Of a stretch of 64,000 nucleotides of DNA, positions 6,875 through 59,268 are shown in pieces. The translations under genes were made by a program, and so were the position numbers. The notes under the pieces were generated by a model. It was not told the DNA's origin, made no database searches, and saw nothing but the letters and a program-made list of their open reading frames with translations. This DNA is from Branchiostoma floridae (Eukaryota > Chordata > Leptocardii > Amphioxiformes > Branchiostomatidae). The stretch spans positions 24,043,019 to 24,107,018 of the forward strand of contig NC_049986.1 in the NCBI RefSeq assembly GCF_000003815.2, written 5' to 3'. Every line of letters begins with the position of its first letter. Position 1 is the first letter of the stretch.

Positions 6875-7040
6875 ATGGACAACAACAAGGGACTTTTTGT
6901 ACTGCTGACCTGCCTGGTCGTCTCCGACAGAGTCCAGGGAACGCTACAGTGAACGCGAACGTCCCAGAAAACGCTCATGTTGGGTAAACCGTCACCGGTG
7001 TTCGGTCGGCCATAGGGGAAGAGAAGGAGGAAGTAAGATG
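6875..7040 (+). pseudogene. RTK 5' fragment 2 (decayed signal peptide and cadherin-like start)
   Basis: ATG at 6875 opens MDNNKGLFVLLTCLVVSDRV, the RTK signal peptide. A small deletion after CTACAG creates a TGA at 6950 (25 codons). Homology to the RTK N-terminus continues in other frames to GGAGGAAGTAAGATG at 7040. It then jumps directly into the intergenic sequence normally found upstream of the next RTK (CTGAAAACACGGATAAGG). A deletion has therefore removed the rest of this RTK copy. Confidence 0.75.
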
Positions 7041-7631: not shown

Positions 7632-10425
7632 ATGAAATTTTTCGTTCTCTTGACCGTCTACGTCTTGGTAGTCTCCGACAGAGTCCAGGGGACGCTACAG
7701 TTGTCAACGAAGGTTCCAGAGAACGCTCATGTTGGGGAAACCGTCACCAGTGTTCGGTCGGCCAAAGGGGAAGGTAGGGAGGAAGTGATATGTAAAATCG
7801 TCGCCGGAGACAAGAACAGACGCTTCCTTGTGACCGACTGCGTGATCCAAGTGGCGCGTCCGTTGGATTACAGCGTCGACCCGAGCTACAACCTCACGGT
7901 AAACGTCACCGGGTCCTCCGGAAACCCCGAGCAGCTGTATGTTGATGTACAAGTCCAAGACGTGGAGGGATACCCGCCTGTTTACAACGACACGTGCGAA
8001 ATGCCGACTCGAACAGCATGGGGGAATTCAGGCGATTTGAACGTCGATATGAAATGGACAGTCAAGGGCATGTCAATGAATATTGGAGAGGTGTTTTTCT
8101 CGAATCACTTTTATTACAATCCCAATAGTGTTAAGGACCAGGTTTCAACAAGAGTATACTCGGATAACAATAATTGTCTAGTGCAGTTTGTATGGAAGCC
8201 CATGAATGGCGATGATATCACTTTTATTAATTCGTTGTGGAGTACGTCGATAGAACGACCGTGCTTGAACTGTTCTGGATCAACAGATGGGGCATCCGTC
8301 CTCCAATTTGAAGTATTGCACAGTTCTACAGGCTTTACTCCCAGTTCGTCTGGCAGCTGTTACACAGGGCCTATTCCTCAAACTGATAGACAATTTATAT
8401 TTGGTGGTTCGTTGACGATTTCATCCATGAAAAGGAATCTTTTCACATGCGACCTGCCAGACAATATCTCGGTCTCCTTAATTCCACATGGCAACGGTCG
8501 TGACATAATACCTCTACTTGTAGAGTTTGATGCCCAGCCAGTCGGATGTCCCCCTAACAAGTACGGCGTGTTGTGTGACCAGAACTGCACCTGTGAGAAC
8601 GGTGCCCGCTGTCATGGGCTGAACGGGGCCTGCAAGTGTCAGCCTGGATGGCAGGGTGTCGTCTGCGACATACCTTACAGTACAGTGGTCATCATCGAGA
8701 CCCCTGGCGACTCACGACGGATTTACATCTCCGGCACTGTTACGTTGCACTGCAAGGTTTTCCATCTGACTGCTGACAGGATGATGTGGACATTTCCTAA
8801 TAAAACGGAAAAGTGGCTGCAGGGCGCTCAGGAAGATCGTGTAAGGATCCAAAACATACAGTCCGAACACAACGGTACCTACACCTGTACTGTGTTAACG
8901 GAAGATGGGGCGGCCATTAACGCAAGTTATGAGCTTCAGACCGTCGCTTGTCCTCCCGGAAAAACGGGTGAATCGTGCGAAGAGGAGTGCGTCTGTAGCC
9001 ATGGCGGCAGCTGTGACAGGTGGGCCGGCTGTGTGTGTCCGCCGGGATGGACAGGAACCACGTGTCAGACCTCCTGCCCAGTTGGCACCTACGGACAGGG
9101 TTGCAGCAGGCGGTGTCGGTGTCAGCATGACGCCACCTGCTTCCTTACCGACGGCCGGTGTAACTGCACGGAAGGCTGGTTCGGCAGTAACTGCAGCAGG
9201 CCCTGCCCCGCAGGTCGGTACGGATGGAAATGTTGGCATGCTTGTGCCTGTAAGAACAATGCCAAGTGTAACAACGTGGACGGAACCTGCGCCTGCGTGC
9301 CACCCTGGACTGGTAAGTTCTGTGACGTCATCGAAACGGACACATACACACTCCAGATTGTCATACCCCTGGTACTGACTCTGCTTGTTGCTGCACTAGT
9401 ATTGCTAATACTCTACAAACGACAGAAGGCTAAACATGGGGCACAAGAAGAGCCTTTAGAGGAAACCAGAGTTCTTCTAGAGCTGAGAAACATGGAAGAC
9501 GACCTGGCACAGAGTTTGCAGCCCGGCTGGCTCAACCGGTGGGAGAGGAACGCCGACGATCTGACTCTGAACGAACTGGTCGGGCTGGGCGCGTCCGCAC
9601 AGATCAGGAAAGGACGGCTTCGAACGGCTGACGCTGACGTCACGGTGGCGGTCAAGTCCGTCCGCATAGAGGACAGGCGGTGCTACCGAGCCTTCTGCCG
9701 GGAAGTCGCCCCGCTGATAGCCGTGCACGAAAACCAGGGAGGAAGAAAAACGGGGGACATCCCAACATCGTCAAGCTCTTTGCGGTCCTCACGATGTCCA
9801 CACCGAAGTGTATTCTCTTGGAATTTGCTGCCAAGGCGAACTTTTGCTCATTCTAAAACAACCTCAGCAGAACGGTCCTCTTGGCAGGTTTGTCCGTTAT
9901 GCCGTCCAGATATCTCATGCCCTGGACGAGCTCCGACGTCTGCGTATCGCTCACGGTGACGTTGCCGCCCGAAACGTCCTGGTCAGCGGCGATGACGTGG
10001 CCAAACTTGCTGACTTCGGTCTGGCCCATGACGTGTACACCGAGACTACCTACGTGTCCGCAGTAAATAACGACGTCGACGAACTCCAGCCCATGAAGTG
10101 GATGGCTCTGGAGTCGCTGGAGTCTCGCGAGTTCACGTGCGAGAGCGACACGTGGTCGTTCGGCGTGCTGTTGTGGGAGATCGCCGCCTTCGGGGAGGAG
10201 CCCAGCTACCAGCGCCAGCGCCAACTGAGTTGTCCCAAGTTGGTGGGGCTCCTGAGGCAGGGGGTCCGTCTGGACAGGCCGCCCGGATGTCCGGACAAGC
10301 TTTATGACGTCATGAAGTCGTGTTGGCGGGAGGAGCCGTCGGCAAGACCAGAGCCGGCAGAACTGGAGCAGAAGCTGACGGAATGTTGCCAAGAGTTGGA
10401 CCCACTTCTGGCTGTGGATATTTAG
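7632..10425 (+). pseudogene. RTK copy 1 (version A ectodomain), start moved and kinase frameshifted
   Basis: The usual start ATGGACAAAAACGTG (as in copy 5) reads AAGGACAGAAACATG here. The normal ATG is therefore lost and translation must begin four codons later at 7632. The frame then gives signal peptide, cadherin-like repeat, version A domain, EGF, Ig, three EGFs, membrane helix and kinase N-lobe through the helix-C Glu. Compared with sister copies, two extra bases near 9735-9752 shift the frame, and one missing A near 9834 shifts it again (net +1). The open frame ends at 9959. The remaining kinase, with the HGD motif, DFG and tail ending LLAVDI, is open from 9808 to 10425 in another frame. 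If expressed, it would be a membrane receptor without catalytic function. Sequencing error cannot be excluded, but start loss plus two shifts favours real decay. Confidence 0.85.
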
Positions 10426-12560: not shown

Positions 12561-15386
12561 ATGGACCACAACGTGGCATTTTTCATTCTCTTGACCTGCC
12601 TGGCCGTCTCCGACAGTGTCCAGGGAACGCTACAGTTCTCAGCAAACGTCCCAGAAAACGCTCACGCGGGGAAAACCGTCACCAGTGTACGGCCGGCCAT
12701 AGGGGAAGGTCGGGAGGAAGTAAGATGTGAAATTGTCGCCGGAGACAAGAACAGACGCTTCCTTGTGACCAACTGTGTGATCCAAGTGGCGCGTCCGTTA
12801 GATTATAACGTCGACCCGAGCTATAACCTGACGGTAAACGTCACTAAGTCCTTCGGAAACCCCGAGCAGCTGTATGTTGATGTACAAGTCCAAGACGTGG
12901 AGGGATACCCGCCTGTTTACAACGACACGTGCGAAATGCCGACTCGGAATGGTCCGGGGAAGTCAGGCGATTTGAACCTAGATATGAAATTGACAGCCGA
13001 GGGTATTGCAATGGATGTAGGAGAGGTATTTGTCTCAAAATACATTCATTACGAAAAAGAAAGGGACCCATTTTCGATTTCAGAGCAGTATATTTTTTTC
13101 ACCGATAACGAGAATTGTCTGGTGCAGGTGATATGGGAGCCATTCAATTCTTATGACACCATAACCGCTCAATCGCTCTCGGACTCCCTAGTAGAACAAT
13201 GCGTGCAATGTGTTAGTTCGGCAGGCGTGGCATCCGTCGTCCAATTCGAAATATTTAAAAGGTGGTCCGGATTTAACCCAGAGGCAAAGAATTCCCGCAA
13301 ATGTTATCTGGGGCCCATTCCTGAAACTGGGGGATACTTTATACTGGCCGGTTCATTCGTGCTTTCTTCCAACATCAAAAACCATTTTACGTGCAAGCTA
13401 CCAGAAGATATCTCAATCTCTGTTTTTATAAATGATATGCATCAGAAAACAATACCTGTACGTTTAGAATTTGATTTCAAGCCAGTCGGATGTCCCTCTA
13501 ACAAGTACGGCGTGTTTTGTGACCAGAACTGCACCTGTGAGAACGGTGCCCGCTGCCATGGGCTGAACGGGGCCTGCAAGTGTCAGCCTGGATGGCAGGG
13601 TGTCGTCTGCGACATACCTCACAGTACAGTGGTCATCATCGCGACCCCTGGCGACTCGACACGGATTCACATCACTGGCTCTGTAACGCTGCACTGCAAG
13701 GTTTTCCATCTGGCTGCTGACAGGATGATGTGGACATTTCCTAATAAAACGGAAAAGTGGCTGCAGGGCGCTCAGGAAGATCGTGTAAGGATCCACAACA
13801 TACAGTCCGAACACAACGGTACCTACACCTGTACTGTGTTAACGGCAGACGGGACTGCCATTAACGCAAGTTATGAGCTTCAGGCCGTGGCTTGTCCTCC
13901 CAGAAAAACGGGTGAAACGTGCGAAGAGGAGTGCGTCTGTAGCCATGGTGGCAGCTGTGACCGGTGGGCCGGCTGTGTGTGCCCGCCGGGATGGACAGGA
14001 AACACGTGTCAGACCTCCTGCCCAGTTGGCACCTACGGACAGGGTTGCAGCAGACGGTGTCGGTGTCAGCATGACGCCACCTGCTCCCCTACCGACGGCC
14101 GGTGTAACTGCACGGAAGGCTGGTTCGGCAGTAACTGCAGCAGGCCCTGCCCCGCAGGTCTGTACGGATGGAAATGTCGGCATGTTTGTGCCTGTAAGAA
14201 CAACGCCACGTGTCACAACGTGGATGGAACCTGCGCCTGCGTGCCACCCTGGACTGGTACGAGGTGTGGCGACATCAAAACGGACACATACACATACACA
14301 TTCCCGGTGTCTCTCCAGATTGCCACACCCCTGGTACTGACTCTGCTAGTCGCTGCACTAGTTTTGTTTATAGTCTATAAACGGAAGAAAGCTAGACGAG
14401 CGGAACATGAAAACAATCTAGAGGAGACCATGGTTGTACTGGAGCTGAGAAACATGGAAGAAGACCTGGCGCAGAGTTTGCAGCCCGGCTGGCTCAACCG
14501 GTGGGAGAGGAACGCCGACGATCTGACTTTGGACGAACTGGTCGGGCTGGGCGCGTTCGCACAGATCAGAAGAGGACGGCTTCGTACGGCTGACGGTGAC
14601 GTCACGGTGGCGGTCAAGTCCGTCCGCATGGAGGACAGGCGGTGCTACCGAGCCTTCTGCCGGGAAGTCGCCGCGCTGATAGCCGTGCACAAAAACGGTG
14701 AGGAAGAAAATGGCGGACATCCCAACATCGTCAAGCTCTTTGGGGTCGTCACGATATCCACACCAAAGTGTATTCTGTTGGAATTCGCTGCAAAAGGAGA
14801 ACTTTTGCTCATTCTAAAACAACCTCGGCAGAACCATCCTCTTGGCAGGTTTGTCCGCTATGCCGTCCAGATATCCCGTGCCCTGGAGGAGCTCCGACGT
14901 CTGCGTATCGCTCACGGGGACGTGGCCGCCCGAAACGTCCTGGTCAGCGGCGATGACGTGGCCAAACTTGCTGACTTCGGTCTGGCCCACGACATCTACA
15001 CCGAGACTACCTACGTGCCCGCAGTCAATGACGACGTCGACGAACTCCTGCCCCTGAAGTGGATGGCTCTGGAGTCGCTGGAGTCTCGCGAGTTCACGTG
15101 CGAGAGCGACACGTGGTCGTTCGGCGTGCTGCTGTGGGAGATCGCCACCTTCGGGGAGGAGCCCAGCTACCAGCGCCAGCGCCAACTGAGCTGTCCCAAG
15201 TTGGTGGGGCTCCTGAGGCAGGGGGTCCGTCTGGACAGGCCGCCCGGATGTCCGGACAAGCTGTATGACGTCATGAAGTCGTGTTGGCGGGAGGAGCCGT
15301 CGGCAAGACCAGAGCCGGCAGAACTGGAGCAGAGGCTGACGGGATGTGGCAAAGAGTTGGACCCACTTCTGGCTGTGGATAATTAA
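12561..15386 (+). CDS. Receptor tyrosine kinase copy 2 (version B ectodomain), 941 aa
   Basis: Single-pass surface kinase. Signal peptide 1-22; cadherin-like repeat about 23-121; version B domain about 129-308, containing a KYIHYEKERDP stretch and cysteines in NENC, CVQC, KCYLGPIP and FTCKLP; EGF 311-351; Ig about 353-441; three EGFs about 445-570; membrane helix about 585-606; kinase about 653-925. Kinase residues: GLGAFAQI loop, ATP Lys686, HGD 785-787, DFG 805-807, activation-loop Tyr 813 and 818. The loop keeps the Phe of GxGxF. Asn-Gly follows a charge change (VHKNGEE) in the alphaC-beta4 loop. Tail ends LLAVDN. No intron is needed. Ligand unknown. Confidence 0.9.
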   Translation: MDHNVAFFILLTCLAVSDSVQGTLQFSANVPENAHAGKTVTSVRPAIGEGREEVRCEIVAGDKNRRFLVTNCVIQVARPLDYNVDPSYNLTVNVTKSFGNPEQLYVDVQVQDVEGYPPVYNDTCEMPTRNGPGKSGDLNLDMKLTAEGIAMDVGEVFVSKYIHYEKERDPFSISEQYIFFTDNENCLVQVIWEPFNSYDTITAQSLSDSLVEQCVQCVSSAGVASVVQFEIFKRWSGFNPEAKNSRKCYLGPIPETGGYFILAGSFVLSSNIKNHFTCKLPEDISISVFINDMHQKTIPVRLEFDFKPVGCPSNKYGVFCDQNCTCENGARCHGLNGACKCQPGWQGVVCDIPHSTVVIIATPGDSTRIHITGSVTLHCKVFHLAADRMMWTFPNKTEKWLQGAQEDRVRIHNIQSEHNGTYTCTVLTADGTAINASYELQAVACPPRKTGETCEEECVCSHGGSCDRWAGCVCPPGWTGNTCQTSCPVGTYGQGCSRRCRCQHDATCSPTDGRCNCTEGWFGSNCSRPCPAGLYGWKCRHVCACKNNATCHNVDGTCACVPPWTGTRCGDIKTDTYTYTFPVSLQIATPLVLTLLVAALVLFIVYKRKKARRAEHENNLEETMVVLELRNMEEDLAQSLQPGWLNRWERNADDLTLDELVGLGAFAQIRRGRLRTADGDVTVAVKSVRMEDRRCYRAFCREVAALIAVHKNGEEENGGHPNIVKLFGVVTISTPKCILLEFAAKGELLLILKQPRQNHPLGRFVRYAVQISRALEELRRLRIAHGDVAARNVLVSGDDVAKLADFGLAHDIYTETTYVPAVNDDVDELLPLKWMALESLESREFTCESDTWSFGVLLWEIATFGEEPSYQRQRQLSCPKLVGLLRQGVRLDRPPGCPDKLYDVMKSCWREEPSARPEPAELEQRLTGCGKELDPLLAVDN

Positions 15387-16404: not shown

Positions 16405-17363
16405 GGGCTGTATAAAGTATCCAAGTATCATATTTTTTGTAAGCTTGGCCGTCGCTATGTACGGACCAGTCTCCACAAGTCGCTCACCAGCCCCTTTGAC
16501 TGCTAAAAATCGGTCACAATTGGAAGAAACATTGTTGGGTCCGCGGTTCTGCTTCCGGTCGCTCTGGCGGTCAGGTATAGGGGAACATGCTGAACTTGTT
16601 CCGTAACGTTATAGGCAGAAAAGGGTCACATGTTAGATGTCAAATACCAGTTTGTTTGGAGAGGACATCCATTTGATTTATACAAAGCTTTCGTCTAAAA
16701 TATATAATATAAAGTATATACTTAATACGTCTTGACGTCAAATGAAGGCCTTATCTTCAGCAGGACTCTCTAATCTGAAAACATGGATAAGGAATACATG
16801 AATACATGAGAGGAAATTATAATGTGCTGGTCAGCTAGCCACCAAATAATACTCATTTTCGTAGAGGCGAAAATGACAGCTTTTTCAAAAGCACTGCTTT
16901 AGTTCTTGACTCAGCCGCTCGGTCAACCTGCAAGATCTTTGTCTCCAGACGTAACTTAATACTTTGTTTTTCTCGCCTTTGGCTTTTCTGGGCCCTACCA
17001 TTGCCCTACCTAAAAACTGGGGTTTCTTCAAAACACAACAATAATTGTGTGAGTCTCGTCATGATAGCCTGTTTTCGCAAGGTTTGCCGTCGCTATGAAA
17101 GAATCAGTTTCCACCGGTCCCTTTTTGGGCCGGTTGTAGTGCTGAAAACCGGTCAGAAGTGGACAAACTATCGTTGGGCTCACTGTTCTGTTCTGGTCCC
17201 CTCTGGCAGTCAGCTACTGAACATACCGATCCTGTTACGTGACGGTATAAGCAGGCTTAGGTTCTATTTACGCAAGAAAAAACTTTTTGTTTGGAGAGGA
17301 CAGTGTGCTTGTGAAGCTAGCCCTCTGGGTTAGATCCGCCCAGACGAGCTAAGAACACTCAAC
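16405..17363 (+). promoter_or_regulatory. Upstream region of RTK copy 3
   Basis: Distal module: GGGCTGTATAAAGTATCC, GGTCAGGTATAGGGG and TTCCGTAACG (palindrome weakened). Middle block: TTCGTAGAGGCGAAAATGAC. Proximal module: CCGGTCAGAAGTGGACAAAC and TTACGTGACGG at about 17235, followed by TTTGTTTGGAGAGGACAGTG. Nearly identical to the proximal part before copies 6 and 8. Confidence 0.55.
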
Positions 17364-20162
17364 ATGGACAAAAACATGCCCTTTTTCGTCCTGTTGACCT
17401 GCCTGGTCGTCTCCGACAGTGTCCAGGGAACGCTAAAGTTGTCAGCGAACGTCCCAGAAAACGCTCACGCGGGGGAAACCGTCACCAGTGTTCGGTCGGC
17501 CATAGCGGAAGGTAGGGAGGAAGTAAAATGTGAAATTGTCGCCGGAAATAGGAACGGACGCTTCCGTGTGACAACCTGCGTGATCCAAGTGGCGCGTCCG
17601 TTGGATTACGGCGTCGACCCGACCTATAACCTCACGGTAAACGTCACCGGGTCCTCCGGAAACCCTGAGCAGCTGTATGTTGATGTACAAGTCCAAGACG
17701 TGGAGGGATACCCGCCTGTTTACAACGACACGTGCGAAATGCCGACTCGGACAGCATGGGGGAACTCAGGCGATTTGAACGTCGATATGAAATGGACAGT
17801 CAAGGGCATGTCAATGAATATTGGAGAGGTGTTTTTCTCGAATCACTTTTATTACAATCCCAATAGTGTTAAGGACCAGGTTTCAACAAGAGTATACTCG
17901 AATAACAATAATTGTCTAGTGCAGTTTGTATGGAAGCCCATGAATAGCGATGATATCACTTTTATTGATTCGTTGTGGAGTACGTCGATAGAACGACCGT
18001 GCTTGAACTGTTCTGGATCAACAGATGGGGCATCCGTCCTCCAATTTGAAGTATTGCACAGTTCTACAGGCTTTACTCCCAGTTCGTCTGGCAGCTGTTA
18101 CACAGGGCCTATTCCTCAAACTGATAGACAATTTATATTTGGTGGTTCGTTGACGATTTCATCCATGAAAAGGAATCTTTTCACATGCGACTTGCCAGAC
18201 AATATCTCGGTCCCCTTAATTCCACATGGCAACGGTCGTGACATAATACCTCTACTTGTAGAGTTTGATGCCCAGCCAGTCGGATGTCCCCCTAACAAGT
18301 ACGGCGTGTTGTGTGACCAGAACTGCACCTGTGAGAACGGTGCTCGCTGCCATGGGCTGAACGGGGCCTGCAAGTGTCAGCCTGGATGGCAGGGTGTCAT
18401 CTGTGACATACCTTACAGTACAGTGGTCATCATCGAGACCCCTGGCGACTCACGACGGATTTACATCTCCGGCACTGTTACGTTGCACTGCAAGGTTTTC
18501 CATCTGACTGCTGACAGGATGATGTGGACATTTCCTAATAAAACGGAAAAGTGGCTGCAGGGCGCTCAGGAAGATCGTGTAAGGATCCAAAACATACAGT
18601 CCGAACATAATGGTACCTACACCTGTACTGTGTTAACGGAAGATGGGGCGGCCATTAACGCAAGTTATGAGCTTCAGGCCGTCGCTTGTCCTCCCGAAAA
18701 AACGGGTGAATCGTGCGAAGAGGAGTGCGTCTGTAGCCATGGCGGCAGCTGTGACAGGTGGGCCGGCTGTGTGTGTCCGCCGGGATGGACAGGAACCACG
18801 TGTAAGACCTCCTGCCCAGTTGGCACCTACGGACAGGGTTGCAGCAGGCGGTGTCGGTGTCAGTATGACGCCACCTGCTTCCCTACCGACGGCCGGTGTA
18901 ACTGCACGGAAGGCTGGTTCGGCAGTAACTGCAGCAGGCCCTGCCCCGCAGGTCGGTACGGATGGAAATGTTGGCATGCTTGTGCCTGTAAGAACAATGC
19001 CAAGTGTAACAACGTGGACGGAACCTGCGCCTGCGTGCCACCCTGGACTGGTAAGTTCTGTGACGTCATCGAAACGGACACATACACAATCCAGATTGTC
19101 ATACCCCTGGTACTGACTCTGCTTGTTGCTGCACTAGTATTGCTAATACTCTACAAACGACAGAAGGCTAAACATGGGGCACAAGAAGAGCCTTTAGAGG
19201 AAACCAGAGTTCTTCTAGAGCTGAGAAACATGGAAGATGACCTTGCACAGAGTTTGCAGCCCGGCTGGCTCAACCGGTGGGAGAGGAACGCAGACGATCT
19301 GACTCTGGACGAACTGGTCGGGCTGGGCGCGTCCGCACAGATCAGAAGAGGACGGCTTCGAACGGCTGACGCTGACGTCACGGTGGCGGTCAAGTCCGTC
19401 CGCATAGAGGACAGGCGGTGCTACCGAGCCTTCTGCCGGGAAGTCGCCGCGCTGATAGCCGTGCATGAAAACAGTGAGGAAGAAAATGGCGGACATCCCA
19501 ACATCGTCAAGCTCTTTGGGGTCGTCACGATGTCCACACCGAAGTGTATTCTCTTGGAATTTGCTGCCAAAGGCGAACTTTTGCTCATTCTAAAACAACC
19601 TCGGCAGAACCGTCCTCTTGGCAGGTTTGTCCGCTATGCCGTCCAGATATCCCGTGCCCTGGAGGAGCTCCGACGTCTGCGTATCGCTCATGGTGACGTG
19701 GCCGCCCGAAACGTCCTGGTCAGCGGCGATGACGTGGCCAAACTTGCTGACTTCGGTCTGGCCCATGACGTGTACACCGAGACTACCTACGTGCCCGCAG
19801 TCAATGACGACGTCGACGAACTCCTGCCCCTGAAGTGGATGGCTCTGGAGTCGCTGGAGTCTCGCGAGTTCACGTGCGAGAGCGACACGTGGTCGTTCGG
19901 CGTGCTGCTGTGGGAGATCGCCGCCTTCGGGGAGGAGCCCAGCTACCAGCGCCAGCGCCAACTGAGTTGTCCCAAGTTGGTGGGGCTCCTGAGGCAGGGG
20001 GTCCGTCTGGACAGGCCGCCGGGATGTCCGGACAAGCTGTATGACGTCATGAAGTCGTGTTGGCGGGAGGAGCCGTCGGCAAGACCAGAGCCGGCAGAAC
20101 TGGAGCAGAGGCTGACGGAATGTTGCCAAGAGTTGGACCCACTTCTGGCTGTTGATAATTAA
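17364..20162 (+). CDS. Receptor tyrosine kinase copy 3 (version A ectodomain), 932 aa
   Basis: Reference copy for version A. Signal peptide 1-22 (MDKNMPFFVLLTCLVVSDSV); cadherin-like repeat 23-121 with VPENAHAGETV, ARPLDY, YNLTVNVT and a DVEGYPPVY end in place of DxNDNxPxF; version A domain about 128-305; EGF 308-348; Ig about 350-438 (Cys376, Trp388, Cys421); EGFs 442-567; membrane helix 577-597; kinase about 644-918. Kinase landmarks: G653-x-G655 with Ala658 at the third glycine position, Lys677, Glu693, H776-G777-D778, D796-F-G, Tyr804/Tyr809, A827-L-E in place of APE, Asp841. Several N-glycosylation sequons lie in the ectodomain. The tail is short and has no tyrosine. Tail ends LLAVDN. 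EGF3 carries QYD where sisters have QHD. Confidence 0.92.
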   Translation: MDKNMPFFVLLTCLVVSDSVQGTLKLSANVPENAHAGETVTSVRSAIAEGREEVKCEIVAGNRNGRFRVTTCVIQVARPLDYGVDPTYNLTVNVTGSSGNPEQLYVDVQVQDVEGYPPVYNDTCEMPTRTAWGNSGDLNVDMKWTVKGMSMNIGEVFFSNHFYYNPNSVKDQVSTRVYSNNNNCLVQFVWKPMNSDDITFIDSLWSTSIERPCLNCSGSTDGASVLQFEVLHSSTGFTPSSSGSCYTGPIPQTDRQFIFGGSLTISSMKRNLFTCDLPDNISVPLIPHGNGRDIIPLLVEFDAQPVGCPPNKYGVLCDQNCTCENGARCHGLNGACKCQPGWQGVICDIPYSTVVIIETPGDSRRIYISGTVTLHCKVFHLTADRMMWTFPNKTEKWLQGAQEDRVRIQNIQSEHNGTYTCTVLTEDGAAINASYELQAVACPPEKTGESCEEECVCSHGGSCDRWAGCVCPPGWTGTTCKTSCPVGTYGQGCSRRCRCQYDATCFPTDGRCNCTEGWFGSNCSRPCPAGRYGWKCWHACACKNNAKCNNVDGTCACVPPWTGKFCDVIETDTYTIQIVIPLVLTLLVAALVLLILYKRQKAKHGAQEEPLEETRVLLELRNMEDDLAQSLQPGWLNRWERNADDLTLDELVGLGASAQIRRGRLRTADADVTVAVKSVRIEDRRCYRAFCREVAALIAVHENSEEENGGHPNIVKLFGVVTMSTPKCILLEFAAKGELLLILKQPRQNRPLGRFVRYAVQISRALEELRRLRIAHGDVAARNVLVSGDDVAKLADFGLAHDVYTETTYVPAVNDDVDELLPLKWMALESLESREFTCESDTWSFGVLLWEIAAFGEEPSYQRQRQLSCPKLVGLLRQGVRLDRPPGCPDKLYDVMKSCWREEPSARPEPAELEQRLTECCQELDPLLAVDN

Positions 20163-22879: not shown

Positions 22880-25681
22880 ATGGACCACAACGCGGCATTT
22901 CTCGTTCTCTTGACCTGCCTGGCCGTCTCCGACAGTGTCCAGGGAACGCTGCAGTTGTCAGCAAACGTCCCAGAAAAAGCTCACGCGGGGAAAACCGTCA
23001 CCAGTGTACGGCCGGCCATAGGGGAAGGTCGGGAGGAAGTAAGATGTGAAATTGTCGCAGGAGACAAGAATAGACGCTTCCTTGTGACCAACTGTGTGAT
23101 CCAAGTGGCGCGTCCGTTAGATTATAACGTCGACCCGAGCTATAACCTGACGGTAAACGTCACTGGGTCCTTCGGAAACCCCGAGCAGCTGTATGTTGAT
23201 GTACAAGTCCAAGACGTGGAGGGGTACCCGCCTGTTTACAACGACACGTGCGAAATGCCGACTCGGAATGGTCCGGGGAAGTCAGGCGATTTGAACCTAG
23301 ATATGAAATTTACAGCCGAGGGTATTGCGATGGATGTAGGAGAGGTATTTGTCTCAAAATACATTCATTACGAAAAAGAAAGGGACCCATTTTCGATTTC
23401 AGAGCAGTACATTTTTTTCACCGATAACGAGAATTGTCTGGTGCAGGTGATATGGGAGCCATTCAATTCTTATGACACCATAACCGCTCAATCGCTCTCG
23501 GACTCCCTAAAACAATGCGTACAATGTGTTAGTTCGGCAGGCGTGGCATCCGTCGTCCAATTCGAAATATTTAAAAGGTGGTCCGGATTTAACCCAGAGG
23601 CAAAGAATTCCCGCAAATGTTATTTTGGGCCCATTCCTGAAACTGGGGGATACTTTATACTGGCCGGTTCATTCGTGCTTTCTTCCAACATCAAAAACCA
23701 TTTTACGTGCAAGCTGCCAGAAGATATCTCAATCTCTGTTTTTATAAATGATATGCATCAGAAAACAATACCTGTACGTTTAGAATTTGATTTCAAGCCA
23801 GTCGGATGTCCCTCTAACAAGTACGGCGTGTTTTGTGACCAGAACTGCACCTGTGAGAACGGTGCCCGCTGTCATGGGCTGAACGGGGCCTGCAAGTGTC
23901 AGCCTGGATGGCAGGGTGTCGTCTGCGACATACCTCACAGTACAGTGGTCATCATCGCGACCCCTGGCGACTCGACACGGATTCACATCACTGGCTCTAT
24001 AACGCTACACTGCAAGGTTTTCCATCTGGCTGCTGACAGGATGATGTGGACATTTCCTAATAAAACGGAAAAGTGGCTGCAGGGCGCTCAGGAAGATCGT
24101 GTAAGTATCCACAACATACAGTCCGAACACAACGGTACTTACACCTGTACTGTGTTAACGGGAGACGGGGCGGTCATTAACACAAGTTATGAGCTTCAGG
24201 CCGTGGCTTGTCCTCCCGGAAAAACGGGTGAGTCGTGCGAAGAGGAGTGCGTCTGTAGCCATGGTGGCAGCTGTGACCGGTGGGCCGGCTGTGTGTGTCC
24301 GCCGGGATGGACAGGAACCACGTGTCAGACCTCCTGCCCAGTTGGTACCTACGGACAGGGTTGCAGCAGGCGGTGTCGGTGTCAGCATGACGCCACCTGC
24401 TCCCCTACCGACGGCCGGTGTAACTGCACGGAAGGCTGGTTCGGCAGTAACTGCAGCAGGCCCTGCCCCGCAGGTCTGTACGGAAGGAAATGTCGGCATG
24501 TTTGTGCCTGTAAGAACAACGCCACGTGTCACAACGTGGACGGAACCTGCACCTGCGTGTCACCCTGGACTGGTAAGTTGTGTGACGTCATAAAAAAGGA
24601 CCCATTCCCGTTGTCACTCCAGATTGCCACACCCCTGATACTGACTCTGCTAGTCGCTGCACTAGTTTTGTTTATTTTCTATAGACGAAAGAAAGCTAGA
24701 CAAGCGGAAAATGAAAACAATGTAGAGGAGACCATGGTTGTACTGGAGCTGAGAAACATGGAAGAAGACTTGGCGCAGGGTTTGCAGCCCGGCTGGCTCC
24801 ATCGGTGGGAGAGGAACGCCGACGACCTGACTCTGGACGAACTGGTCGGGCTGGGCGCGTCCGCACAGATCAGGAGAGGACGGCTTCGTACGGCTGGCGC
24901 TGACGTCACGGTGGCGGTCAAGTCCGTCCGCATAGAGGATAGGCGGTGCTACCGAGCCTTCTGCCGGGAAGTCGCCGCGCTGGTAGCCGTGCACGAAAAT
25001 AGTGAGGAAGAAAATGGCGGACATCCCAACATCGTCAAGCTCTTTGGGGTCGTCACGATGTCTTCACCGAAGTGTATTCTGTTGGAATTTGCTGCCAAAG
25101 GCGAACTTTTGCTCATTCTAAAACAACCTCGGCAGAATCGTCCTCTTGGCAGGTTTGTTCGCTATGCCGTCCAGATATCCTGTGCCCTGGACGAGCTCCG
25201 ACGTCTGCGTATCGCTCACGGTGACGTGGCCGCCCGAAACGTCCTGGTCAGCGGCGATGACGTAGCCAAACTTGCTGACTTCGGTCTGGCCCATGACGTC
25301 TACACCGAGACTACTTACGTGTCCGCAGACAATGACGACGTCGACGAACTCCTGCCCCTGAAGTGGATGGCTCTGGAGTCGCTGGAGTCTCGCGAGTTCA
25401 CGTGCGAGAGCGACACGTGGTCGTTCGGCGTGCTGCTGTGGGAGATCGCCGCCTTCGGGGAGGAGCCCAGCTACCAGCGCCAGCGCCAACAGAGCTGTCC
25501 CAAGTTGGTGGGGCTCCTGAGGCAGGGGGTCCGTCTGGACAGGCCGCCCGGATGTCCGGACAAGCTGTATGACGTCATGAAGTCGTGTTGGCGGGAGGAG
25601 CCGTCGGCAAGACCAGAGCCGGCAGAACTGGAGCAGAGGCTGACAGAATGTGGCCATGAGTTGGACCTCGTTCATAATTAA
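22880..25681 (+). CDS. Receptor tyrosine kinase copy 4 (version B ectodomain), 933 aa
   Basis: Starts MDHNAAFLVLLTCLAVSDSV. Domain order as copy 2, with the version B central domain almost unchanged but two residues shorter at SDSLKQC. The juxtamembrane stalk is short (KKDPFPLSLQ), so the protein is eight residues shorter than copy 2. Kinase keeps Lys of VAVK, HGDVAARN, DFG and the YTETTY activation loop. It differs at YVSADNDD where most copies have YVPAVNDD. The C-tail ends HELDLVHN instead of LLAVDN, a change shared only with copy 9. Ig residue change RVSIHN. No frameshift or stop is visible, so it is likely functional. Confidence 0.9.
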   Translation: MDHNAAFLVLLTCLAVSDSVQGTLQLSANVPEKAHAGKTVTSVRPAIGEGREEVRCEIVAGDKNRRFLVTNCVIQVARPLDYNVDPSYNLTVNVTGSFGNPEQLYVDVQVQDVEGYPPVYNDTCEMPTRNGPGKSGDLNLDMKFTAEGIAMDVGEVFVSKYIHYEKERDPFSISEQYIFFTDNENCLVQVIWEPFNSYDTITAQSLSDSLKQCVQCVSSAGVASVVQFEIFKRWSGFNPEAKNSRKCYFGPIPETGGYFILAGSFVLSSNIKNHFTCKLPEDISISVFINDMHQKTIPVRLEFDFKPVGCPSNKYGVFCDQNCTCENGARCHGLNGACKCQPGWQGVVCDIPHSTVVIIATPGDSTRIHITGSITLHCKVFHLAADRMMWTFPNKTEKWLQGAQEDRVSIHNIQSEHNGTYTCTVLTGDGAVINTSYELQAVACPPGKTGESCEEECVCSHGGSCDRWAGCVCPPGWTGTTCQTSCPVGTYGQGCSRRCRCQHDATCSPTDGRCNCTEGWFGSNCSRPCPAGLYGRKCRHVCACKNNATCHNVDGTCTCVSPWTGKLCDVIKKDPFPLSLQIATPLILTLLVAALVLFIFYRRKKARQAENENNVEETMVVLELRNMEEDLAQGLQPGWLHRWERNADDLTLDELVGLGASAQIRRGRLRTAGADVTVAVKSVRIEDRRCYRAFCREVAALVAVHENSEEENGGHPNIVKLFGVVTMSSPKCILLEFAAKGELLLILKQPRQNRPLGRFVRYAVQISCALDELRRLRIAHGDVAARNVLVSGDDVAKLADFGLAHDVYTETTYVSADNDDVDELLPLKWMALESLESREFTCESDTWSFGVLLWEIAAFGEEPSYQRQRQQSCPKLVGLLRQGVRLDRPPGCPDKLYDVMKSCWREEPSARPEPAELEQRLTECGHELDLVHN

Positions 25682-27996: not shown

Positions 27997-30819
27997 ATGG
28001 ACAAAAACGTGACATTTTTCGTTCTCTTGACCGTCTACGTCTTGGTAGTCTCCGACAGAGTACTAGTGCTGGGAACGCTACAGTTGTCAACGAAGGTTCC
28101 AGAGAACGCTCATGTTGGGGAAACGGTCACCAGTGTTCGGCCGGCCACAGAGGAAGGTCGGGAGGAAGTAAGATGTGAAATTGTCGCCGGAGACAAGAAC
28201 AGACGCTTCCGTGTGACCGACTGCGTGATCCAAGTGGCCCGTCCGTTGGATTACGGCGTTAACCCGAGTTATAACCTCATGGTAAACGTCACCGGGTCCT
28301 CCGGAAACCCCGAGCAGCTGTATGTTGATGTACAAGTCCAAGACGTGGAGGGATACCCGCCTGTTTACAACGACACGTGCGAAATGCCGACTAGGACAGC
28401 ATGGGGGAACTCAGGCGATTTGAACGTCGATATGAAATGGACAGTCAAGGGCATGTCAATGAGTATCGGAGAGGTGTTTGTCTCGAATCACTTTTATTAC
28501 AATCCCAATAGTATGAAGGACCAGGTTTCAACAAGAGTATACTCAGATAACAACGATTGTCTAGTGCAGTTTGTATGGAAGCCCATGAATGACGATGATA
28601 TCACTTTTATTAATTCGTTGTGGAGGACGTCGAAAGAACGAAAGTGCTTGAACTGTTCTGGATCAACAGATAGGGCATCCGTCCTCCAATTTGAAGTATT
28701 GCACAGTTCTACAGGCTTTACTCCCAGTTCGTCTGGCAGCTGTTACACAGGGCCTATTCCTCAAACTGATAGACAATTTATATTTGGTGGTTCGTTGACG
28801 ATTTCATCCATGAAAAGAAATCTTTTCACATGCGACCTGCCGGACAATATCTCGGTCTCCTTAATTCCACATGGCAACGGTCGTGACGTAATACCTCTAC
28901 TTGTAGAGTTTGATGCCCAGCCAGTCGGATGTCCCCCTAACAAGTACGGCGTGTTGTGTGACCAGAACTGCACCTGTGAGAACGGTGCCCGCTGTCATGG
29001 GCTGAACGGGGCCTGCAAGTGTCAGCCTGGATGGCAGGGTGTCGTCTGCGACATACCTCACAGTACAGTGGTCATCATCGAGACCCCTAGCGACTCACGA
29101 CGGATTTACATCTCCGGCACTGTTACGTTGCACTGCAAGGTTTTCCATCTGACTGCTGACAGGATGATGTGGAAATTTCCTAATAAAACGGAAAAGTGGC
29201 TGCAGGGCGCTCAGGAAGATCGTGTAAGGATCCACAAAATACAGTCCGAACATAACGGTACCTACACCTGTACTGTGTTAACGGGAGACGGGACTGCCAT
29301 TAACGCAAGTTATGAGCTTCAGGCCGTCGCTTGTCCTCCCGGAAAAACGGGTGAATCGTGCGAAGAGGAGTGCGTCTGTAGCCATGGCGGCAGCTGTGAC
29401 CGGTGGGCCGGCTGTGTGTGTCCGCCGGGATGGACAGGAACCACGTGTCAGACCTCCTGCCCAGTTGGCACCTACGGACAGGGTTGCAGCAGGCGGTGTC
29501 GGTGTCAGCATGACGCCACCTGCTCCCCTACCCACGGCCGGTGTAACTGCACGGAGGGCTGGTTCGACAATAACTGCAGCAGGCGCTGCCCCGCAGGTCG
29601 GTACGGATGGAAATGTCGGCATGCTTGTGCCTGTAAGAACAATGCCAAGTGTAACAACGTGGACGGAACCTGCGCCTGCGTGTCACCCTGTACTGGTAAG
29701 TTGTGTGACGTCATCGAAACGGAAACATACACGTTCCCGTTGTCACTCCAGATTGCCATACCCCTGGTACTGACTCTTCTAGTCACTGCACCAGTAGTGT
29801 TGATACTGTACAAACGGAAGAAGGCTAAACATGATGCACAAGAAGAGCCTTTAGAGGAAACCAGAGTTCTTCTAGAGCTGAGAAGCATGGAGGACGACCT
29901 GGCGCAGAGTTTACAGCCCGGCTGGCTCAACCGGTGGGAGAGGAACGCCGACGATCTGACTCTGGACGAACTGATCGGGCTGGGCGCGACTGCACAGATC
30001 AGGAAAGGACGGCTTCGCACGGCTGACGCTGACGTCACGGTGGCGGTCAAGTCCGTCCGCATAGAGGACAGGCGGTGCTACCGAGCCTTCTGCCGGGAAG
30101 TCGCCGCGCTGATAGCCGTGCACGAAAACAGTGAGGAAGAAAATGGCGGACATCCCAACATCGTCAAGCTCTTTGGGGTCGTCACGATGTCCACACCGAA
30201 GTGTATTCTCTTGGAATTTGCTGCTAAAGGCGAACTTTTGCTCATTCTTAAACAACCTCGGCAGAACCGTCCTCTTGGCAGGTTTGTCCGCTATGCCGTC
30301 CAGATATCCCGTGCCCTGGAGGAGCTCCGACGTCTGCGTATCGCTCACGGTGACGTGGCCGCCCGAAACGTCCTGGTCAGCGGCGATGACGTGGCCAAAC
30401 TTGCTGACTTCGGTCTGGCCCATGACGTGTACACCGAGACTACCTACGTGCCCGCAGTAAATGACGACGTCGACGAACTCCTGCCCCTGAAGTGGATGGC
30501 TCTGGAGTCGCTGGAGTCTCGCGAGTTCACTTGCGAGAGCGACACGTGGTCTTTTGGCGTGCTGCTGTGGGAGATCGCCGCCTTCGGGGAGGAGCCCAGC
30601 TACCAGCGCCAGCGCCAACTGAGTTGTCCCAAGTTGGTGGGGCTCCTGAGGCAGGGGGTCCGTCTGGACAGGCCGCCCGGATGTCCGGACAAGCTGTATG
30701 ACGTCATGAAGTCGTGTTGGCGGGAGGAGCCGTCGGTAAGACCAGAGCCGGCAGAACTGGAGCGAAGGCTGACGGAATGTTGCCAAGAGTTGGACCCACT
30801 TCTGGCTGTGGATATTTAG
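27997..30819 (+). CDS. Receptor tyrosine kinase copy 5 (version A ectodomain), 940 aa
   Basis: Signal peptide is longer than in sisters (MDKNVTFFVLLTVYVLVVSD then RVLVLG). The central domain is version A with charge changes (SKERKCLNC). In the last EGF, the conserved PPWTGK reads SPCTGK, adding an odd cysteine that may be unpaired in the folded receptor. Stalk and helix read TYTFPLSLQIAIPLVLTLLV, then an Ala-Pro inside the helix (TAPVVLILYK) where others have AALVLLILYK. Kinase loop GLGATAQIRKG; HGD, DFG, YTETTY and ALE as in the family. Tail ends RRLTECCQELDPLLAVDI. Open throughout; the membrane-helix proline and extra cysteine make altered folding or dimerisation possible (inference). Confidence 0.9.
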   Translation: MDKNVTFFVLLTVYVLVVSDRVLVLGTLQLSTKVPENAHVGETVTSVRPATEEGREEVRCEIVAGDKNRRFRVTDCVIQVARPLDYGVNPSYNLMVNVTGSSGNPEQLYVDVQVQDVEGYPPVYNDTCEMPTRTAWGNSGDLNVDMKWTVKGMSMSIGEVFVSNHFYYNPNSMKDQVSTRVYSDNNDCLVQFVWKPMNDDDITFINSLWRTSKERKCLNCSGSTDRASVLQFEVLHSSTGFTPSSSGSCYTGPIPQTDRQFIFGGSLTISSMKRNLFTCDLPDNISVSLIPHGNGRDVIPLLVEFDAQPVGCPPNKYGVLCDQNCTCENGARCHGLNGACKCQPGWQGVVCDIPHSTVVIIETPSDSRRIYISGTVTLHCKVFHLTADRMMWKFPNKTEKWLQGAQEDRVRIHKIQSEHNGTYTCTVLTGDGTAINASYELQAVACPPGKTGESCEEECVCSHGGSCDRWAGCVCPPGWTGTTCQTSCPVGTYGQGCSRRCRCQHDATCSPTHGRCNCTEGWFDNNCSRRCPAGRYGWKCRHACACKNNAKCNNVDGTCACVSPCTGKLCDVIETETYTFPLSLQIAIPLVLTLLVTAPVVLILYKRKKAKHDAQEEPLEETRVLLELRSMEDDLAQSLQPGWLNRWERNADDLTLDELIGLGATAQIRKGRLRTADADVTVAVKSVRIEDRRCYRAFCREVAALIAVHENSEEENGGHPNIVKLFGVVTMSTPKCILLEFAAKGELLLILKQPRQNRPLGRFVRYAVQISRALEELRRLRIAHGDVAARNVLVSGDDVAKLADFGLAHDVYTETTYVPAVNDDVDELLPLKWMALESLESREFTCESDTWSFGVLLWEIAAFGEEPSYQRQRQLSCPKLVGLLRQGVRLDRPPGCPDKLYDVMKSCWREEPSVRPEPAELERRLTECCQELDPLLAVDI

Positions 30820-32797: not shown

Positions 32798-35596
32798 ATG
32801 GACAAAAACATGCCCTTTTTCGTCCTGTTGACCTGCCTGGCCGTCCTCGACAGTGTCCAGGGAACCCTACAGTTGTCAGCGAACGTCCCAGAAAACGCTC
32901 ACGCGGGGGAAACCGTCACCAGTGTTCGGTCGGCCATAGGGGAAGGTAAAGAGGAAGTAAGATGTGAAATTGTCGCCGGAGACAAGAACAGGCGCTTCAG
33001 TGTTACAAACTGCGTGATCCAGGTGGCCCGTCCGTTGGATTACGGCGTCGACCCGACTTATAACCTCACGGTAAACGTCATCGGGTCCTCCGGAAACCCC
33101 GAGCAGCTGTATGTTGATGTGCAAGTCCAAGACGTGGAGGGATACCCGCCTGTTTACAACGACACGTGCGAAATGCCGACTCGAACAGCATGGGGGAATT
33201 CAGGCGATTTGAACGTCGATATGAAATGGACAGTCAAGGGCATGTCAATGAATATTGGAGAGGTGTTTTTCTCGAATCACTTTTATTACAATCCCAATAG
33301 TGTTAAGGACCAGGTTTCAACAAGAGTATACTCGGATAACAATAATTGTCTAGTTCAGTTTGTATGGAAGCCCATGAATGGAGATGATATCACTTTTATT
33401 AATTCGTTGTGGAGTACGTCGATAGAACGACCGTGCTTGAACTGTTCTGGATCACCAGATGGGGCATCCGTCCTCCAATTTGAAGTATTGCACAGTTCTA
33501 CAGGCTTTACTCCCAGTTCGTCTGGCAGCTGTTACACAGGGCCTATTCCTCAAACTGATAGACAATTTATATTTGGTGGTTCGTTGACGATTTCATCCAT
33601 GAAAAGGAATCTTTTCACATGCGACCTGCCGGACAATATCTCGGTCTCCTTAATTCCACATGGCAACGGTCGTGACATAATACCTCTACTTGTAGAGTTT
33701 GATGCCCAGCCAGTCGGATGTCCCCCTAACAAGTACGGCGTGTTGTGTGACCAGAACTGCACCTGTGAGAACGGTGCTCGCTGCCATGGGCTGAACGGGG
33801 CCTGCAAGTGTCAGCCTGGATGGCAGGGTGTCATCTGTGACATACCTTACAGTACAGTGGTCATCATCGAGACCCCTGGCGACTCACGACGGATTTACAT
33901 CTCCGGCACTGTTACGTTGCACTGCAAGGTTTTCCATCTGACTGCTGACAGGATGATGTGGACATTTCCTAATAAAACGGAAAAGTGGCTGCAGGGCGCT
34001 CAGGAAGATCGTGTAAGGATCCAAAACATACAGTCCGAACATAATGGTACCTACACCTGTACTGTGTTAACGGAAGATGGGGCGGCCATTAACGCAAGTT
34101 ATGAGCTTCAGGCCGTCGCTTGTCCTCCCGAAAAAACGGGTGAATCGTGCGAAGAGGAGTGCGTCTGTAGCCATGGCGGCAGCTGTGACAGGTGGGCCGG
34201 CTGTGTGTGTCCGCCGGGATGGACAGGAACCACGTGTCAGACCTCCTGCCCAGTTGGCACCTACGGACAGGGTTGCAGCAGGCGGTGTCGGTGTCAGCAT
34301 GACGCCACCTGCTTCCCTACCGACGGCCGGTGTAACTGCACGGAAGGCTGGTTCGGCAGTAACTGCAGCAGGCCCTGCCCCGCAGGTCGGTACGGATGGA
34401 AATGTTGGCATGCTTGTGCCTGTAAGAACAATGCCAAGTGTAACAACGTGGACGGAACCTGCGCCTGCGTGCCACCCTGGACTGGTAAGTTCTGTGACGT
34501 CATCGAAACGGACACATACACAATCCAGATTGTCATACCCCTGGTACTGACTCTGCTTGTTGCTGCACTAGTATTGCTAATACTCTACAAACGACAGAAG
34601 GCTAAACATGGGGCACAAGAAGAGCCTTTAGAGGAAACCAGAGTTCTTCTAGAGCTGAGAAACATGGAAGATGACCTTGCACAGAGTTTGCAGCCCGGCT
34701 GGCTCAACCGGTGGGAGAGGAACGCCGACGATCTGACTCTGGACGAACTGGTCGGGCTGGGCGTGTCCGCACAGATCAGAAGAGGACGGCTTCGAACGGC
34801 TGACGCTGACGTCACGGTGGCGGTCAAGTCCGTCCGCATAGAGGACAGGCGGTGCTACCGAGCCTTCTGCCGGGAAGTCGCCGCGCTGATAGCCGTGCAT
34901 GAAAACAGTGAGGAAGAAAATGGCGGACATCCCAACATCGTCAAGCTCTTTGGGGTCGTCACGATGTCCACACCGAAGTGTATTCTCTTGGAATTTGCTG
35001 CCAAAGGCGAACTTTTGCTCATTCTAAAACAACCTCGGCAGAACCGTCCTCTTGGCAGGTTTGTCCGCTATGCCGTCCAGATATCCCGTGCCCTGGAGGA
35101 GCTCCGACGTCTGCGTATCGCTCATGGTGACGTGGCCGCCCGAAACGTCCTGGTCAGCGGCGATGACGTGGCCAAACTTGCTGACTTCGGTCTGGCCCAT
35201 GACGTGTACACCGAGACTACCTACGTGCCCGCAGTCAATGACGACGTCGACGAACTCCTGCCCCTGAAGTGGATGGCTCTGGAGTCGCTGGAGTCTCGCG
35301 AGTTCACGTGCGAGAGCGACACGTGGTCGTTCGGCGTGCTGCTGTGGGAGATCGCCGCCTTCGGGGAGGAGCCCAGCTACCAGCGCCAGCGCCAACTGAG
35401 TTGTCCCAAGTTGGTGGGGCTCCTGAGGCAGGGGGTCCGTCTGAACAGGCCGCCGGGATGTCCGGACAAGCTGTATGACGTCATGAAGTCGTGTTGGCGG
35501 GAGGAGCCGTCGGCAAGACCAGAGCCGGCAGAACTGGAGCAGAGGCTGACGGAATGTTGCCAAGAGTTGGACCCACTTCTGGCTGTTGATAATTAA
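32798..35596 (+). CDS. Receptor tyrosine kinase copy 6 (version A ectodomain), 932 aa
   Basis: Same length and domain positions as copy 3, of which it is the block-duplicated partner. From the central domain onward only scattered changes are visible. The cadherin-like domain is more diverged (GKEEVRCEIVAGDKNRRFSV against copy 3 GREEVKCEIVAGNRNGRFRV), suggesting conversion by another copy at the 5' end. Kinase: GLGVSAQIRRG (Val in the glycine loop), Lys677, HGD, DFG, Tyr804/809. RLNRPPGCP has Asn where others have Asp. Signal peptide LTCLAVLDSVQG. Tail ends LLAVDN. Intact. Confidence 0.92.
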   Translation: MDKNMPFFVLLTCLAVLDSVQGTLQLSANVPENAHAGETVTSVRSAIGEGKEEVRCEIVAGDKNRRFSVTNCVIQVARPLDYGVDPTYNLTVNVIGSSGNPEQLYVDVQVQDVEGYPPVYNDTCEMPTRTAWGNSGDLNVDMKWTVKGMSMNIGEVFFSNHFYYNPNSVKDQVSTRVYSDNNNCLVQFVWKPMNGDDITFINSLWSTSIERPCLNCSGSPDGASVLQFEVLHSSTGFTPSSSGSCYTGPIPQTDRQFIFGGSLTISSMKRNLFTCDLPDNISVSLIPHGNGRDIIPLLVEFDAQPVGCPPNKYGVLCDQNCTCENGARCHGLNGACKCQPGWQGVICDIPYSTVVIIETPGDSRRIYISGTVTLHCKVFHLTADRMMWTFPNKTEKWLQGAQEDRVRIQNIQSEHNGTYTCTVLTEDGAAINASYELQAVACPPEKTGESCEEECVCSHGGSCDRWAGCVCPPGWTGTTCQTSCPVGTYGQGCSRRCRCQHDATCFPTDGRCNCTEGWFGSNCSRPCPAGRYGWKCWHACACKNNAKCNNVDGTCACVPPWTGKFCDVIETDTYTIQIVIPLVLTLLVAALVLLILYKRQKAKHGAQEEPLEETRVLLELRNMEDDLAQSLQPGWLNRWERNADDLTLDELVGLGVSAQIRRGRLRTADADVTVAVKSVRIEDRRCYRAFCREVAALIAVHENSEEENGGHPNIVKLFGVVTMSTPKCILLEFAAKGELLLILKQPRQNRPLGRFVRYAVQISRALEELRRLRIAHGDVAARNVLVSGDDVAKLADFGLAHDVYTETTYVPAVNDDVDELLPLKWMALESLESREFTCESDTWSFGVLLWEIAAFGEEPSYQRQRQLSCPKLVGLLRQGVRLNRPPGCPDKLYDVMKSCWREEPSARPEPAELEQRLTECCQELDPLLAVDN

Positions 35597-59121: not shown

Positions 59122-59268
59122 AAATGAATGAATGAATGAATGAATGAATGAATGAATGAATGAATGAATGAATGAATGAATGAATGAATGAATGAATGAA
59201 TGAATGAATGAATGAATGAATGAATGAATGAACGAACGAATGAATGAATGAATGAATGAATGAATGAA
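59122..59268. repeat. TGAA tetranucleotide microsatellite (~147 bp)
   Basis: Nearly pure (TGAA)n with two GAAC variants near 59231-59238. Bounded on both sides by GACAAGGTAATGAT. Confidence 0.95.

Follow-up and report, generated by a model that had tools for sequence, protein, structure and literature searches.

How do ten neighbouring genes come to share most of their sequence while one segment in the middle of their ectodomain occurs in strongly different versions? This question is raised by a stretch of 64,000 nucleotides from the amphioxus Branchiostoma floridae (NC_049986.1; C8:24043019-24107018 in our contig numbering; hereafter the window), which holds ten tandem receptor tyrosine kinase (RTK) genes, all on the + strand and spaced by ~5 kb. 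Each gene runs, in one frame, from a cadherin domain through the variable segment (hereafter the cassette), an EGF module, an Ig domain and further EGF modules to a transmembrane (TM) segment and a kinase. Comparison of these copies with each other and with related loci of the same genome revealed that two old cassette lineages persist, each homogeneous in itself, and that the cassette is not a fast-mutating segment.

The open frames measure 932-941 amino acids (aa) in the eight intact copies, and the genes, as read from these frames, appear to be single-exon; the frame of copy 1 is broken within the kinase and that of copy 10 just N-terminal of the TM segment. Pfam searches with the copy proteins detected one cadherin domain, EGF-type modules, one Ig domain and a tyrosine kinase. 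Copy 3, the reference for residue and codon numbering, is predicted to be an RTK by its kinase (PF07714, E 9e-63), its cadherin and Ig domains and a TM segment recognised by eye; its kinase shows the predicted catalytic motifs VAVK, HGDVAARN and DFG. Self-comparison of the window further revealed a duplication that produced copies 6-8 from copies 3-5; the two blocks are shifted by ~15.4 kb and match over 9.4 kb (95.6%) followed by 6.1 kb (92.2%). The genes, their cassettes and the features of the reference copy lie at the following positions of the window:

7632..10425, + strand: RTK copy 1, cassette A; frame broken inside the kinase
12561..15386, + strand: RTK copy 2, cassette B; 941 aa open frame
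17364..20162, + strand: RTK copy 3, cassette A; 932 aa open frame; reference
22880..25681, + strand: RTK copy 4, cassette B
27997..30819, + strand: RTK copy 5, cassette A
32798..35596, + strand: RTK copy 6, cassette A
38326..41148, + strand: RTK copy 7, cassette B
43601..46399, + strand: RTK copy 8, cassette A; EGF1+Ig partly B-like
48281..51097, + strand: RTK copy 9, cassette B
53448..56251, + strand: RTK copy 10, cassette C; frame broken just before the TM segment
8001..8537, + strand: cassette A of copy 1
12936..13481, + strand: cassette B of copy 2
17739..18275, + strand: cassette A of copy 3
23255..23797, + strand: cassette B of copy 4
28384..28920, + strand: cassette A of copy 5
33173..33709, + strand: cassette A of copy 6
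38701..39243, + strand: cassette B of copy 7
43976..44512, + strand: cassette A of copy 8
48656..49201, + strand: cassette B of copy 9
53823..54353, + strand: cassette C of copy 10
17442..17693, + strand: cadherin domain of copy 3, residues 27-110 (Pfam PF00028, E 9e-8)
18447..18632, + strand: Ig domain of copy 3, residues 362-423 (Pfam PF13927, E 5e-7)
19083..19163, + strand: TM segment of copy 3, about residues 574-600 (hydrophobic stretch by eye)
19299..20114, + strand: tyrosine kinase domain of copy 3, residues 646-917 (Pfam PF07714, E 9e-63)
17020..17363, + strand: presumed proximal promoter/5' untranslated region (5'UTR) of copy 3, a class-specific island (A-B versus A-A divergence)

A preliminary description of the window had sorted the cassettes into versions A (copies 1, 3, 5, 6 and 8), B (copies 2, 4, 7 and 9) and C (copy 10), and this sorting was confirmed together with its coordinates. 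The cassette spans residues ~126-304 (~540 nt). The shared sequences used to delimit it are exact in nine of ten copies for ATGCCGACTCG (the exception being copy 5) and in all ten for CCAGTCGGATGTCCC. When aligned with the copy-3 segment (196 aa, including a few conserved edge residues), the four remaining A copies are 93-98% identical to it, with identity dropping to 48-49% in the B copies and to 62% in C. All six cysteines of the described scaffold (NC, CxxC, CY.GPIP, TC.LP) are present in each of the ten copies. Version C has a partly mosaic build, being B-like at the 3' end of the cadherin region and over the first ~25 cassette codons and nearer to A in the middle of the cassette.

Synonymous (dS) and nonsynonymous (dN) divergence in the array was estimated region by region with the Nei-Gojobori method. 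Between A and B copies, dS/dN reached 0.759/0.443 in the cassette, compared with 0.218/0.083 in the cadherin region, 0.121/0.050 in EGF1+Ig, 0.063/0.046 in EGF2-4, 0.363/0.182 in the TM and juxtamembrane (JM) region, and 0.087/0.024 and 0.093/0.026 in the N- and C-terminal parts of the kinase. This dS peak contradicts uniform divergence across the gene, which the preliminary description had named as evidence against itself. The corresponding omega (dN/dS) of the cassette was 0.58; the remaining regions lay at 0.28-0.50, with EGF2-4 (0.73) as the exception. Within class A, the cassette showed 0.045/0.017, its dS being the second-lowest of all regions, with 0.177/0.070 in the cadherin region and 0.017/0.018 in EGF2-4; between B copies the cassette dS of 0.040 was the lowest among regions. 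At shared four-fold degenerate sites, of which the cassette offers 34-38, A and B differed by 0.41-0.53 in the cassette versus 0.06-0.10 outside it, an excess matched by 0 of 20,000 permutations in each of the seven A-B pairs tested (20 possible). Within classes, the four-fold difference was lower in the cassette than outside in all five pairs tested (16 possible). Since silent sites have diverged as well, the cassette is an island of old divergence spared by conversion.

The flanks are less uniform than had been described: the promoter/5'UTR, the first ~20 codons and the TM/JM region differ by class too. Per-site divergence of the proximal promoter/5'UTR was 0.25-0.42 between A and B versus 0.09-0.17 within A, and the first ~20 codons differ inside class A too. 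Over positions ~-340 to -1 the promoter classes of the array track the cassette classes, A and C sharing one type and B having another; the locus L010, outside the window, breaks this rule. As the promoter classes of the array follow the cassette classes, class-specific expression of these genes may be suggested.

Protein and cassette searches of the same genome (513.43 Mb in 431 contigs) revealed at least 61 loci of this receptor family on 12 contigs, broken and partial loci included; this lower bound derives from 50 merged intervals, 11 of them with two genes each. From 41 full-length genes (eight window copies and 33 further loci) we obtained 792 pairs not both in the window, of which 206 with a kinase dS<0.6 were treated as related, though pairs share genes and hence are not independent. 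Cassette dN was the highest of all regions in 192 of the 206 related pairs, and the 14 exceptions include pairs with near-identical cassettes such as L026/L036; cassette dS equalled or exceeded that of the kinase in 198 and that of the cadherin region in 202. Pooled dS/dN/omega values were 1.01/0.49/0.49 for the cassette, 0.31/0.14/0.43 for the cadherin region, 0.44/0.13/0.30 for TM/JM and 0.225/0.067/0.30 for the kinase, so that family-wide the cassette omega of 0.49 stands against 0.30-0.43 in the other regions. Mean protein identity within the groups of contigs C8, C7 and C12 was 0.44, 0.61 and 0.51 for the cassette, 0.89-0.92 for the kinase and 0.59-0.72 for the signal region.

The pair L011/L012, two loci 1.35 Mb apart, displays the pattern in its sharpest form, with a dS of 0.01 in EGF1+Ig, 0.01 in EGF2-4 and 0.03 in the kinase versus 1.36 in the cassette. 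In 60-nt bins these two genes are 98-100% identical across EGF1+Ig and most of EGF2-4 (last bin 90%) and 93-100% across the kinase, compared with 37-56% in the cassette core, 29-49% upstream and values down to 78% in TM/JM. The cassette edges coincide, at codons ~121-140 and ~301-320, in eight pairs from C8, C7, C12 and C17 that were hand-picked for close flanks and differing cassettes; the weakest of them is L030/L032 (C17), whose cassette climbs to 91% at its 3' side.

Homogenisation of most of the gene by conversion, as proposed in the preliminary description, receives support from the dS peak, from edges confined to about 60-120 nt, from mosaic copies and from a low GC content at third codon positions (GC3) in the cassette. 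Group means of GC3 are 0.42-0.45 in the cassette versus 0.48-0.71 in cadherin, EGF1+Ig, EGF2-4 and kinase regions, and GC3 is lower in the cassette than in the cadherin region in 41 of 42 genes, than in EGF1+Ig in 40 of 42, than in EGF2-4 in 42 of 42 and than in the kinase in 40 of 41. In fugu protocadherins the same contrast serves as a mark of conversion (PMC1852091).

The cassette had also been called swappable. One clear case bears this out, along with flank mosaics in copy 8 and L010. Of the informative sites of L028, 50 of the 62 located upstream or in cadherin 1-240 agree with copy 8, but 115 of the 127 in the cassette agree with copy 10 (p 5e-25); in this clear recombinant, a cassette of version C follows a promoter and half a cadherin region of A type. 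L028 also contains 733 N, so a chimeric assembly is possible there. Copy 8 is of A type at 182 of 188 cassette sites, but within EGF1+Ig it follows A at 12 and B at 13 of 27 sites (p 1e-11). A B-type cassette is found on L010 as well, with a different promoter.

The explanation that we favour with moderate confidence is that conversion homogenises the flanks while the cassette escapes it, the differences probably being maintained because binding specificity resides in the cassette. Recurrent conversion among copies, both in tandem and across >1 Mb, would keep the EGF, Ig and kinase parts alike and the cadherin region less strictly so; for the EGF, Ig and kinase parts, the pattern of likeness is that of conversion. 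The cassette would escape, retaining the old identity of each receptor type, and the pattern would fit an exchange confined to copies of the same class, the likeness within classes then probably being due to conversion and not merely to recent duplication. Since the cassette presumably contacts the ligand, swapping between types would be selected against, and the signalling part could be shared. Recombination beside the cassette may occasionally set one version behind another promoter and N-terminus, as in L028. The outcome would be a germline receptor set with several recognition surfaces and one common output.

Whether selection can be traced in the codons was addressed with site models (M0, M1a/M2a, M7/M8) on the C8, C7 and C12 sets, run with our own codon-model code without a check against PAML and applied to cassette, cadherin, EGF1+Ig and kinase of each set, the C12 kinase excepted (11 of 12 regions). 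The M0 omega of the cassette was 0.549 in C8, 0.768 in C7 and 0.555 in C12. It exceeded the flanks in C8 (cadherin 0.440, EGF1+Ig 0.451, kinase 0.324) and in C7 (0.627, 0.433 and 0.352, respectively). Tree lengths of 5.6-5.7 in two of the three sets suggest that silent sites are near saturation. Region trees were compared as well: among six regions and 15 taxa, the cassette data reject all other region trees and all other regions reject the cassette tree in approximately unbiased (AU) tests (p <= 2.2e-4).

Several results weigh against the favoured explanation. In C12 the cadherin (0.609) and EGF1+Ig (0.622) regions exceed the cassette in M0 omega, which is the absence of an excess over the flanks that the preliminary description had set as counter-evidence; C8 and C7 do not show it. 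No significant class with omega>1 was detected in the cassette of any of the three sets (M1a/M2a p 1, 0.30 and 1; M7/M8 p 0.42, 0.16 and 0.22), and positive selection as the cause of cassette divergence is therefore unsupported by the site models. Between 53 and 63% of cassette codons fall into the omega=1 class (M1a for C12 and C7; 58% under M2a for C8), so that loose constraint could explain part of the divergence. The promoter, 5' end and TM/JM region are islands too, as expected if conversion fails where sequence has drifted, and when C8 genes are compared with C12 genes, identity in the signal region (0.15) is as low as in the cassette (0.16). Rejection in 29 of 30 off-diagonal AU comparisons indicates recombination along the whole gene and nothing peculiar to the cassette, so tree conflict was discarded as a cassette-specific sign. 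Targeted constraints gave a mixed result, with AU p<0.05 in four of ten (L012 outside in the kinase, 0.004; copy 8 with B/C in the cassette, 0.0005; L010 with B upstream, 0.028; A+C+L009 in the kinase, 0.018) and values from 0.066 to 0.41 in the other six. Finally, cassette GC3 is low in the C1/C5/C11/C17/C18 gene group as well, and may thus be an old property of the domain.

The foremost rival explanation is a passive escape, in which a loosely constrained cassette drifted past the similarity that conversion needs, as did the promoter, signal peptide and TM/JM region, without selection for difference. With promoter and TM/JM also being islands, the term homogenised flanks is only partly right and such an escape appears quite possible; the high share of cassette codons at omega=1 without a significant class above it, the C12 omega values and the sharp cassette edges all agree with it. 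Three observations argue the other way. The cadherin region is nearly as loose as the cassette (pooled omega 0.43 vs 0.49) yet has one third of its dS (0.31 vs 1.01); C8 and C12, with cassettes of 16% mutual identity, have their cassette edges at the same places; and the cassette retains an open frame and four (near-)invariant cysteines.

A replacement of cassettes, with the flanks being ordinary recent duplicates into which divergent cassettes were imported by recombination from other loci, would account for the C cassette of L028 behind its A-type promoter and cadherin half, and for the B-type cassette of L010 under a different promoter. We consider it unlikely. In L011/L012 the promoters look unrelated (29-49%) and the cassettes are old, but EGF1/Ig is 98-100% and the kinase 93-100% identical, which indicates that the flank moved and not the cassette; moreover, every match in searches with the A cassette (19 matches) and the B cassette (24) lies at or beside loci of this receptor family. 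An assembly artefact, by which collapsed or chimeric haplotypes would produce apparent classes and mosaics, could draw on the 733 N of L028 and the broken frames of copies 1 and 10, but is very unlikely given that many full-length genes with open frames, spread over several chromosomes, display the same pattern. A locally raised mutation rate or targeted hypermutation would raise dS between classes, as observed, and is the least credible of all, since the cassette is not unusually divergent within classes, neither by dS (B-B 0.040, A-A 0.045) nor at four-fold sites in the five pairs.

What kind of domain conversion spares, under the favoured explanation, was examined by profile searches. From its sequence the cassette, ~180-190 residues long and located between the cadherin domain and the first EGF, would be an extracellular domain not yet classified, in which four cysteines are (near-)invariant. 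Among 27 family members Y2, C6, C98, C157, P160, G189 and C190 are invariant, G189 and C190 belonging to the EGF edge; C66 is conserved in at least 90% of the 27, and the other two scaffold cysteines do not reach this level. No Pfam family matched more than one of the ten window cassettes (best E 0.16) or more than one of the 27 (best E 0.0065); the latter match, to a phage-type nuclease family in one member, was taken as chance. Profile searches against the PDB gave no convincing match (best E 0.4 and 0.03). The top entries were MHC class I/beta-2-microglobulin chimeras (E 0.03-0.05), in which two weak Ig domains sum and no stretch passes alone, followed by HLA-DQ beta (E 0.18) and single beta-2-microglobulin chains (0.26 or worse); no Ig family appeared among the Pfam matches of the 27 members. 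That the cassette arose by duplication of the receptors' Ig or cadherin domain was rejected (hhalign probability 0.6% and 0.4%), and of 28 pattern matches followed as possible viral relatives none was a relative by tblastn. Two structure predictions, each from the ten window sequences alone, remained uninformative, with predicted local distance difference test scores (pLDDT) of 29.2 and 30.7.

Further features were observed in the family and in the surroundings of the array. In the C12 set, EGF1+Ig gave the sole strong signal of the site models (M8 omega 5.8 in 11% of codons, p 1.6e-8), which recombination can mimic, and C12 loci such as L025, L027, L026 and L029 show a second short variable spot in the Ig domain, with a dip at copy-3 codons 381-400. 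Among eight kinases examined, HGDVAARN is found in copy 3, L013, L014, L021 and L046; L024, L025 and L030 display HRDVA and a GEGMFG glycine loop, versus GLGASAQ in copy 3, possibly representing two kinase subtypes. L048 (C14:18934500-18939000), on a different chromosome, is a disrupted copy, whose stretch 617-925 including the kinase shows 88% protein identity to copy 3 but only 50% from the cadherin end to the cassette. Upstream of copy 1, window positions 6568-7100 hold a degenerate 5' fragment of a further receptor copy (66-70% to the upstream/5' ends of copies 1 and 10). The left flank also contains a duplicated stretch (789-1708 and 6074-6988, 89%) and, near 4.2 kb, a sulfotransferase-like reading frame recognised by eye. 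Towards the right end we found an AATG tetranucleotide array of 36.5 copies (59123-59268), a 33-bp minisatellite of 7.6 copies (62731-62980) and the beginning of a C-type-lectin-like reading frame, likewise recognised by eye (63687-63998).

How a single open frame is partitioned between conversion and divergence can be studied here as in a natural experiment, the same ~540-nt island being present in three gene clusters of the genome, in pairs with a kinase dS of only 0.03-0.12. The pattern hints at a specificity domain, in an RTK family whose size would suffice for a recognition repertoire, and the A, B and C classes together with the recombinants make the specificity idea directly testable. 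One may speculate, with considerable doubt, that the at least 61 loci, most of them single uninterrupted frames, constitute a germline recognition repertoire for self, symbionts or microbes, in which a new extracellular domain gives specificity, conversion keeps a common signalling chassis, and recombination beside the cassette re-pairs specificities with promoters and N-termini.

A literature search over titles and abstract beginnings of open-licence papers returned nothing recognisable as describing this receptor family or cassette. The amphioxus tyrosine kinase expansion reportedly described by D'Aniello et al. in 2008 probably includes this family, which may therefore already be known from that work. 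With RET, Tie and similar RTKs the genes share extracellular modules and a C-terminal tyrosine kinase; unlike in those receptors, the order here is cadherin, cassette, EGF, Ig, EGFs. Tie receptors possess FN3 repeats beside Ig and EGF, and Pfam scans of three of the amphioxus proteins (E<=1) returned no FN3; RET has several cadherin-like domains and a Cys-rich domain, and the same scans gave one cadherin match per protein.

Clustered protocadherins of vertebrates use shared constant exons. The amphioxus genes differ from them in having one cadherin domain, a kinase of their own in each gene and a variable part without a Pfam cadherin or Ig match. According to PMC1852091, the clustered protocadherins have six extracellular cadherin (EC) repeats, undergo regional gene conversion and vary in EC1-EC3, with positive diversifying selection reported for EC2/EC3 in mammals. 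Six repeats are not seen in the three amphioxus proteins scanned, one of whose single cadherin matches lies just below the curated cut-off. Both systems consist of tandem paralogues in which regional homogenisation affects one part of the ectodomain and spares another, variable part, with a higher GC3 in the homogenised part (PMC1852091).

A divergence peak inside converted duplicates has been described as a signature of selection to keep a difference (PMC3924837). There, the red/green opsin pair (Teshima and Innan) concerns two sites in one gene pair, unlike the whole ~540-nt domain in many genes here. The amphioxus receptors show the same form, a dS peak flanked by low dS between paralogues, as do the opsins, with divergence peaking over the presumed target of selection and low around it (PMC3924837).

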